DNA of 34,359 nt. Source: an uncultured Caulobacterales bacterium (GTDB taxonomy: Bacteria; Pseudomonadota; Alphaproteobacteria; Caulobacterales; Caulobacteraceae). Every line of letters begins with the position of its first letter. The stretch's first letter is position 1. The position numbers were made by a program, and so were the translations under genes. Shown here piece by piece: positions 16,108-18,034 of this stretch. The notes beneath the pieces were generated by a model. That model did not search any database, was not told the DNA's origin, and was given only the letters and a program-made list of their open reading frames with translations. The stretch is from assembly GCA_903874895.1 (NCBI GenBank), contig CAIQUG010000123.1, positions 1 to 34,359 on the forward strand, given 5' to 3'.

Positions 16108-16183
16108 GCCGCCTTAGCTCAGCCGGTAGAGCACCGCATTCGTAATGCGGGGGTCAGGTGTTCGAGTCACCTAGGCGGCACCA
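16108..16183 (+). tRNA. tRNA-Thr (anticodon CGT)
   Basis: Acceptor arms GCCGCCT and AGGCGGC pair perfectly. The D-arm holds TAGCTCAGCCGGTAGAGCA, the anticodon loop ATTCGTAAT gives CGT (16141-16143) for ACG codons, the T-loop is GTTCGAGTC, and CCA is encoded (16181-16183). A lower-GC stretch begins right after it, so the 3' end could be an integration site, but I found no direct copy of it downstream. Confidence 0.97.
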
Positions 16184-16186
16184 CTT

Positions 16187-16207
16187 ACCCGTTTTAATTC
16201 AACGGGT
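16187..16207 (+). terminator. Hairpin just downstream of tRNA-Thr
   Basis: ACCCGTT (16187-16193) and AACGGGT (16201-16207) form a perfect 7-bp stem with a TTAATTC loop, three bases after the encoded CCA. Its position suggests a stop or processing signal for the tRNA transcript. There is no T run after it on either strand. Confidence 0.45.
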
Positions 16208-16513
16208 GTGCGAGTCTCACAGCGCCGGTTCGTCACAGGTTCCAGCCTTCCGATTGCTGCAGCCGCGCCATGGTCCCGTGAAAAATGATTTCGAATCAAG
16301 GCGTTGACGCGCGAGCCAAGCCATCGAGGGCATGATCAGAAGGTTCGTGGCCGGGATCACGACCGGCCGCAGACAAGGTGCGCGAGGCTGGTCGTTCATC
16401 CGCAGACGGCGGGAGCAATCGAAGCCGACAGTCTCGCCCTTCTGCATTGTGTCCGGCGGAGATATGTTCCGGACCTGGCGTCTATCTGACTGGGTTCGTG
16501 TTGGGGGTGGTTG
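16208..16513. other. Gene-poor stretch between tRNA-Thr and the repeat protein
   Basis: About 306 bp of lower-GC DNA. Short open frames on both strands overlap each other and none has a recognisable product or good start. It presumably contains the promoter of the repeat-protein gene, but I see no clear -35/-10 pair. No tRNA-end duplicate, transposase or terminal repeat is visible. Confidence 0.4.
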
Positions 16514-17797
16514 GTGCGTCTTGGATGGGTTGCATCGCTGATTTTCGGTGCTTTTACGAGCCAGGCGATGGGTGCTGGCAGTGGTGACCACCCCGCCAGA
16601 CTGACGGCCGTCCCCGATGCGACGGCCCTGTTCGCCGCATTCCCGGAATCCGCCCTTGAAACCGGTACGCCCGGTAGAGCAACGATTCGCTGTCAGATCG
16701 GCGACCGCGGAGCGCTTTCGGGTTGTGCCGTGGTCGATGAAAATCCGAGGGGATATGGTTTCGGCCCTGCAGCCCTGCGATTATCCGGAAGCATGACAGC
16801 GAGTCTGCCGGTTCAGGATGGGGCAGAGTCGAAAAATGCCACTATGACCATCCCGCTCTCTTTTGATCTCCCGCCTGTGACTGCGCCAAGAATATATGAG
16901 GCTCTACCCACGGGTGAACAGCTCATGCAGGTCTATCCGAACGCTGCGAGAGTCGCGCTTATTCATGGCAGGGCCAAACTCTACTGCCTTGTTACAGCCG
17001 AAGGCCAGTCCTATGGGTGTCACGTGCTGAGTGAATACCCGGCAGGTTACGGGTTTGGGAAAGCGGCCTTGCGGCTGGCTCCGTTTTTCAAAATGAAGGC
17101 GGTGACTGCCAGTGCCGAGTCCAACGATTCAAGCATGGTCGTGCCGATTGTATTCAACATCGATGGTGTCGCAAGAGGCGGCTATCCGTTCACCGGGATT
17201 GAACTCTGGCGAGCAACGCCATCACGAAATGACATTGAGGCGGCCTTTCCGGTAGACGCGCGGACCATGCAGGCATCGGGTCTTGTTGAGTTGGCCTGTG
17301 CCGTCTCTGCTGATGGTCGACTGGATTCGTGCGACGTCGCGCGAGAGGTCCCGGAAGGCTTGGGTTTTGGCAAGGCTGCAATCACGTTGGTGCCGAAATT
17401 CCTGGCAGACTTTCCACCCGGTGAGATCAAGGGCGTTGGCCAGACGGTTCTGACGACGATCCGGTTCAGGGCATCACCTGAAACGACGCGGGTGACGTTC
17501 TGGCGCAGGCAGCTGAGTCTGCCAGCGCTGACCGATGACGATCTCGAGCGGGCTCTCCCGGAACCGGCTCGGCGGGCGAAGGTGAGATCGGCTCATGCTG
17601 TCGTGAGCTGTTCGGTCGGTTCGGATGGTTCGATGCATGACTGCGCATCGACAGAGGAAGCGCCTGCGAACCTCGGCATCGGGGAAGCCGCCGTGAAGCT
17701 GGTTTCGGGCCGGCGGATCGACGTCTGGAAGGATGGCGCTTCGCTCGAGGATCGGCCCTTCATCTGGGATATCGTTCTGGGGCGGCAGCCGAGGTAA
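16514..17797 (+). CDS. Secreted protein with four tandem TonB-C-like CX10C repeats
   Basis: The 427-residue protein begins with a signal peptide (MRLGWVASLIFGAFTSQAMG, cleavage near 20-22). Four repeats of about 100 residues follow. Each has P-x-(A)-F/YP, a strand ending in Cys, ten residues with a central D/E-G turn, a second Cys, then E-x-P-x-G-x-G-F/I-G-x-A-A. The cysteine pairs are 60/71, 158/169, 262/273 and 366/377, and there are no other cysteines, which strongly suggests one disulfide per repeat in the periplasm. The repeat resembles TonB C-terminal domains common in Caulobacterales. No TonB N-terminal anchor or proline-rich spacer is present. GTG 14 at 16514 follows a GGGGG run. Codon use and GC are clearly lower than in the neighbours (34 of 60 bases G or C in 16921-16980). 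Confidence 0.8.
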   Translation: MRLGWVASLIFGAFTSQAMGAGSGDHPARLTAVPDATALFAAFPESALETGTPGRATIRCQIGDRGALSGCAVVDENPRGYGFGPAALRLSGSMTASLPVQDGAESKNATMTIPLSFDLPPVTAPRIYEALPTGEQLMQVYPNAARVALIHGRAKLYCLVTAEGQSYGCHVLSEYPAGYGFGKAALRLAPFFKMKAVTASAESNDSSMVVPIVFNIDGVARGGYPFTGIELWRATPSRNDIEAAFPVDARTMQASGLVELACAVSADGRLDSCDVAREVPEGLGFGKAAITLVPKFLADFPPGEIKGVGQTVLTTIRFRASPETTRVTFWRRQLSLPALTDDDLERALPEPARRAKVRSAHAVVSCSVGSDGSMHDCASTEEAPANLGIGEAAVKLVSGRRIDVWKDGASLEDRPFIWDIVLGRQPR

Positions 17798-18034
17798 CGG
17801 TCTGCCATGGCCTGTGGTGCGAGGGAGCGCAGACCTCGCGTTACTCACGGTGCCGCCAGCAAAGACCCGCTCGGCCATTCCGCGACCGTCCTGGGCCGTC
17901 CCGCTGTCCGCCGTGCCGTGACGGCGCCGGCCACAGGATCCCGGCCCCAGTCCGGATTACAGGATGTCCGGTCCGAAGAACTGTGGCATTCAACGCCACC
18001 ATCGTCCTATCCCTTTCCCGAGAGCCCGCACCCC

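Follow-up and report, generated by a model that had tools for sequence, protein, structure and literature searches.

The array gene described here, which lies in a 34,359-nucleotide stretch of DNA (the window) from an uncultured member of Caulobacteraceae, encodes a protein composed of a signal-peptide-like N-terminus and four repeats of the TonB C-terminal domain (TonB-CTD) type, and profile searches place it among arrays that constitute a Caulobacteraceae-specific family of tandem TonB-CTD proteins. Tandem TonB-CTDs are already on record, whereas for the soluble, conserved, and position-ordered array family no published description was found in a search that lacked most subscription journals. 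As to function, our main reading, to which we give a probability of only about 35%, is that the exported array may serve in the periplasm as a multivalent scaffold that binds peptides and is unpowered, candidate ligands being TonB boxes.

The N-terminus of the protein, MVRLGWVASLIFGAFTSQA-MGAG, resembles by eye a Sec signal of the cleavable type, with no lipobox cysteine, and the same signal-like N-termini are found in its homologues. Only two in-frame starts, TTG 16511 and GTG 16514, are available to this signal peptide, and an in-frame stop precedes both. Neither the sequence nor the structural model of the array protein contains a TonB-type transmembrane anchor or a proline-rich spacer (the genome's own TonB serving as the contrast), and repeat 1 begins almost straight after the signal-like segment. 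Judging from its sequence, the protein is probably exported and soluble.

Four stretches of the protein match the TonB_C profile in both Pfam (PF03544; E 7.5e-23, 81.2 bits against a cut-off of 24.6) and NCBIfam (TIGR01352, tonB_Cterm; E 5.6e-19), which places the repeats far beyond chance. The only eight cysteines of the protein form four CX10C pairs, one in each repeat (Table 1). An AlphaFold2 model, built from a 14-row alignment of the window protein and relative sequences, reached a mean pLDDT of 75 and a pTM of 0.42, the latter being low, as expected, because the domains are on flexible links. In this model, repeats 1–3 each consist of two short helices, two strands, a helix, and a strand, while the last strand and C-terminal end of repeat 4 are modelled without confidence, and each cysteine pair sits on two adjacent strands. 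The best PDB match found by Foldseek was 2gsk_B, the TonB of the BtuB:TonB complex (probability 1.00, TMt 0.72), followed among the top matches by 1xx3 and 1u07 (also probability 1.00), and TonB/TolA C-terminal domains account for nearly all meaningful fold matches, the rest being of low probability. The first-pass annotation, made from the sequence alone, had claimed four identically spaced cysteine pairs with no other cysteines, which agrees exactly with the translation, and the lack of a TonB anchor and spacer, which holds, with the signal-like N-terminus leading directly into repeat 1; the structural comparison with TonB C-terminal domains that it had proposed returned the TonB-CTD fold, with 2gsk on top. 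The array-bearing genome also encodes a DsbB homologue, and the model suggests that one strand-to-strand disulfide per repeat would form after export. No long direct repeats were found within the array gene, which leaves a recent duplication at the DNA level unsupported as the origin of its four domains.

Table 1. Features of the array gene and its surroundings in the window
Feature	Position	Strand	Details
tRNA-Thr (CGT)	16108..16183	+	Flanks the variable slot; G003 (sister genome) is homologous up to 3 bases beyond the tRNA
Variable slot, not homologous to sister genome G003	16187..17962	.	Low-GC upstream stretch, array gene, start of DUF1993 leader
Array gene	16511..17797	+	427 aa from GTG 16514 (TTG 16511 a possible start); consists solely of four TonB_C repeats behind a signal-peptide-like N-terminus
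Signal-peptide-like N-terminus	16514..16585	+	About residues 1-24, without lipobox Cys; read by eye and from the parallel in homologues
Repeat D1	16613..16864	+	About residues 34-117; Cys60/Cys71; Arg166 equivalent Ser; Phe230 equivalent kept (Phe); pLDDT mostly 86-97
Repeat D2	16895..17155	+	About residues 128-214; Cys158/Cys169; Arg166 equivalent Ala; Phe kept
Repeat D3	17207..17467	+	About residues 232-318; Cys262/Cys273; Arg166 equivalent Asp; Phe kept
Repeat D4	17522..17779	+	About residues 337-422; Cys366/Cys377; Arg166 equivalent Pro; Phe230 equivalent Leu; C-terminal end modelled poorly

The cysteine spacing extends well beyond the arrays. The anchored TonB encoded in the same genome (G000:C162, L001:1492-2187, 231 aa) carries a CX10C pair too and shares the domain sequence pattern, but differs in having an anchor, a proline-rich spacer, a single domain, and the motif YPDRAQR with its arginine; of the clade's single-domain TonB-type proteins that were examined, 19/19 likewise had CX10C. 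The motif was therefore rejected as an array hallmark, and the disulfide idea, reasonable in itself, appears to describe Caulobacteraceae TonB tips in general. The earlier picture of a free periplasmic array pinned by disulfides is accordingly borne out in part: the TonB-C-fold repeats, the placement of the cysteines, and the DsbB homologue favor it, but the cysteine pattern is not specific to arrays and the array is not a singleton.

Relatives were recovered with a three-row alignment, a single-sequence scan of genome contigs having given none and an eight-row alignment being too diverse. A family profile built from arrays with three to four repeats gave strong matches (E<=1e-40) in 79 of 199 Caulobacteraceae genomes, distributed over 14 of 22 genera, and in a class-wide sample 4/289 genomes matched at 1e-20, the sole match outside Caulobacteraceae being a single-domain protein. 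The named relatives belong to Caulobacter, Phenylobacterium, and other Caulobacteraceae, and those found in Asticcacaulis have one or two domains. The window protein shows the architecture that defines the family, namely a signal-like N-terminus followed by two to four CX10C TonB_C repeats and nothing else, and the search for multi-repeat proteins suggested at first reading has thus turned up a conserved family of arrays with 2–4 domains. With position-specific profiles, D3 of the window scores best against D3-type profiles and D4 against the last-domain profiles of other arrays, and TonB/D2 types are the nearest for D1 and D2 (a 253-row domain tree was poorly resolved, and position identity is therefore based on these profile scores); since D3 and D4 score best with position-matched domains elsewhere, the repeat order is old. 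In two array pairs, dN/dS was about 0.16–0.17 (dN 0.12/dS 0.77 and dN 0.18/dS 1.02), and the array relatives are evidently under purifying selection.

Among the best 30 family loci, which are top matches to a profile built from such loci and so bias the count toward these neighbourhoods, 17 arrays immediately follow a gene that encodes a helical protein, and the other 13 are adjacent to polA. By eye this helical protein lacks a signal peptide; it matches no Pfam family, and its model is a TPR-type solenoid. One member of this TPR-like solenoid family (L043:4441-5841) and its homologues are uncharacterised proteins of 450–490 aa without a Pfam or NCBIfam match, and their gene sits just upstream of the three-domain array at every examined locus of this kind. 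Elsewhere, four consecutive array genes adjoin polA (G358:C1:96349-100353), and similar runs of three occur in two further genomes (G477 C19 and G492 C7). Neither a polA nor a TPR-type neighbour is found beside the window array. The latter shares with the three- and four-domain arrays of Caulobacter segnis (L044) and Phenylobacterium deserti (L050) the signal-like N-terminus, CX10C repeats, and domain order, whereas these two are located beside polA or the TPR-type gene and have near-native base composition, and the window array is low in GC and located beside tRNA-Thr.

According to PMC6118199, a contact with the FhuA plug is proposed for Arg166 of Escherichia coli TonB, whose Phe230 adjoins the TonB box at its conserved valine. 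The Arg166 column holds arginine in 18/19 clade TonBs versus 7/131 array domains, and in none of the window repeats, whereas the Phe230 column is aromatic in 129/131 array domains; for the window repeats, the Phe230 equivalents given in Table 1 rest on a phmmer alignment, the reference row being misplaced at the strand-3 end of the family alignment. Since the Arg166 equivalent is lost and the Phe230 aromatic is kept, the arrays look like TonB tips that retain the strand-pairing edge but lack the arginine that is suggested to disturb the plug. The E. coli TonB-CTD on BtuB (PDB 2GSK; PF03544/TIGR01352) shares with the window array the fold and profile of every repeat as well as the aromatic of D1–D3, and is distinguished from it by the anchor and spacer that the array lacks, while the array has four copies, CX10C pairs, and a replaced Arg166 equivalent. 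The binding surface of the arrays may still be in use; it is also possible that the aromatic on the box-binding strand is kept for a structural rather than a functional reason.

Under the scaffold reading, the cysteines would form one disulfide per domain once the array is exported, and the domains would bind extended envelope-protein segments through strand addition, with the TonB boxes of roughly 30 TonB-dependent receptors as the obvious candidate partners. The array would then hold, buffer, or gather these segments in the periplasm without pulling. The array-bearing genome yields 30 TonB-dependent-receptor barrel matches, and Caulobacter-type bacteria depend heavily on such receptors. Repeat 4, with its leucine in place of the aromatic and its poorly modelled C-terminal end, counts against the scaffold reading, as does the fact that no receptor gene was seen next to the conserved arrays; the conserved neighbours, polA and the TPR-type protein, say nothing about peptide binding. 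The main rival, which we regard as rather unlikely, is that the domains bind the wall, or envelope proteins that are not TonB-dependent receptors, as a peptidoglycan or envelope tether that braces or positions the envelope. In the clade, proteins of the adhesin-E-like, TPR, and M56-peptidase kinds carry the same domain, suggesting a general periplasmic module, and a septal role is reported for the TonB-like protein SjdR of Anabaena (PMC8262864); against tethering to the wall, no wall-binding motif is known for the array.

An active part in receptor control is unlikely, yet several observations would fit it. Here the array would compete with TonB for TonB boxes, as a decoy or regulator, and thereby lower or select receptor uptake, in keeping with the box-binding strand aromatic kept in D1–D3, receptor-bound TonB as the best fold match, the about 30 receptors of the genome, and one receptor gene 3.6 kb downstream of the array in the window. 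However, the Arg166 equivalent is lost, no receptor gene was seen beside conserved arrays in the neighbourhoods examined, and the window's receptor neighbour is not part of a conserved context. A functional partnership with genes near the array in the window (receptor, glycosidase, and FMO) was also weighed and dropped, as these are not conserved neighbours. A broader version, in which the arrays form a family-wide second, unpowered set of TonB tips controlling which TonB-dependent receptors the motor can access, is doubtful indeed. In this version, the free, multivalent arrays would retain the receptor-binding strand without the lever arginine in organisms with dozens of receptors. The family may bring to light a scaffold or regulator of the system for outer-membrane transport.

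The genomic setting of the window array bears on another explanation. Its third-position GC is 0.62, compared with 0.82–0.94 for the other 22 window genes that were measured, whereas arrays in other genomes are mostly closer to their neighbours. Homology with the sister genome G003 resumes at 17963, before the DUF1993 gene, and G003 carries a GNAT-type ORF in the slot between tRNA-Thr and that gene, while in the sister genome G001 the same DUF1993 gene is preceded by an unrelated ORF. The G001 ORF has a double-glycine-leader-like start and weak muramidase similarity (slot loci L150 and L151). A search for direct repeats of the tRNA end that would resemble an att site gave no match. Because its third-position GC is low and the sisters hold other genes in the slot, we read the window array as an accessory gene that probably arrived from outside into a variable slot beside tRNA-Thr. 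It could be a transient product of lineage-specific TonB_C proliferation with no dedicated function in this genome, in line with its foreign composition, the other genes carried by the sisters, and the many TonB_C domain proteins per Caulobacteraceae genome. We consider this improbable, given the intact frame with all eight cysteines kept in the window and the purifying selection, conserved order, and synteny of its relatives. Least probable by far is a true TonB energy transducer working with a separate anchor protein, which would explain the TonB_C fold but is opposed by the missing transmembrane anchor and spacer, the loss of the Arg166 equivalent in 4/4 repeats, and an intact TonB elsewhere in the genome; without anchor or spacer the array cannot transduce energy in the manner of TonB, and energy transduction by it is very unlikely.

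Separated from the motor, with one key residue gone and another kept, the arrays would offer a natural test of what each part of the TonB tip does. Chu, Peacock and Vogel reportedly described in 2007 mostly anchored proteins, namely TonBs with two serial C-terminal domains and fusions of TonB with MecR1/BlaR1 (M56-peptidase); the arrays differ from these tandem and fused TonB-CTDs in being soluble, with four domains here, and in forming a conserved family with two set neighbourhoods. Related architectures also occur within the clade. In one Caulobacteraceae genome, an M56 (BlaR1-type) peptidase is fused to two CX10C TonB_C domains (L020:289-2274), and another protein has three such domains followed by TPR repeats, with a near-N-terminal cysteine that may belong to a lipobox (L019:1411-3027). 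The array-bearing genome itself encodes a protein with a signal-like N-terminus, one CX10C TonB_C domain, and then an Adhesin_E domain (L004:1315-2256).
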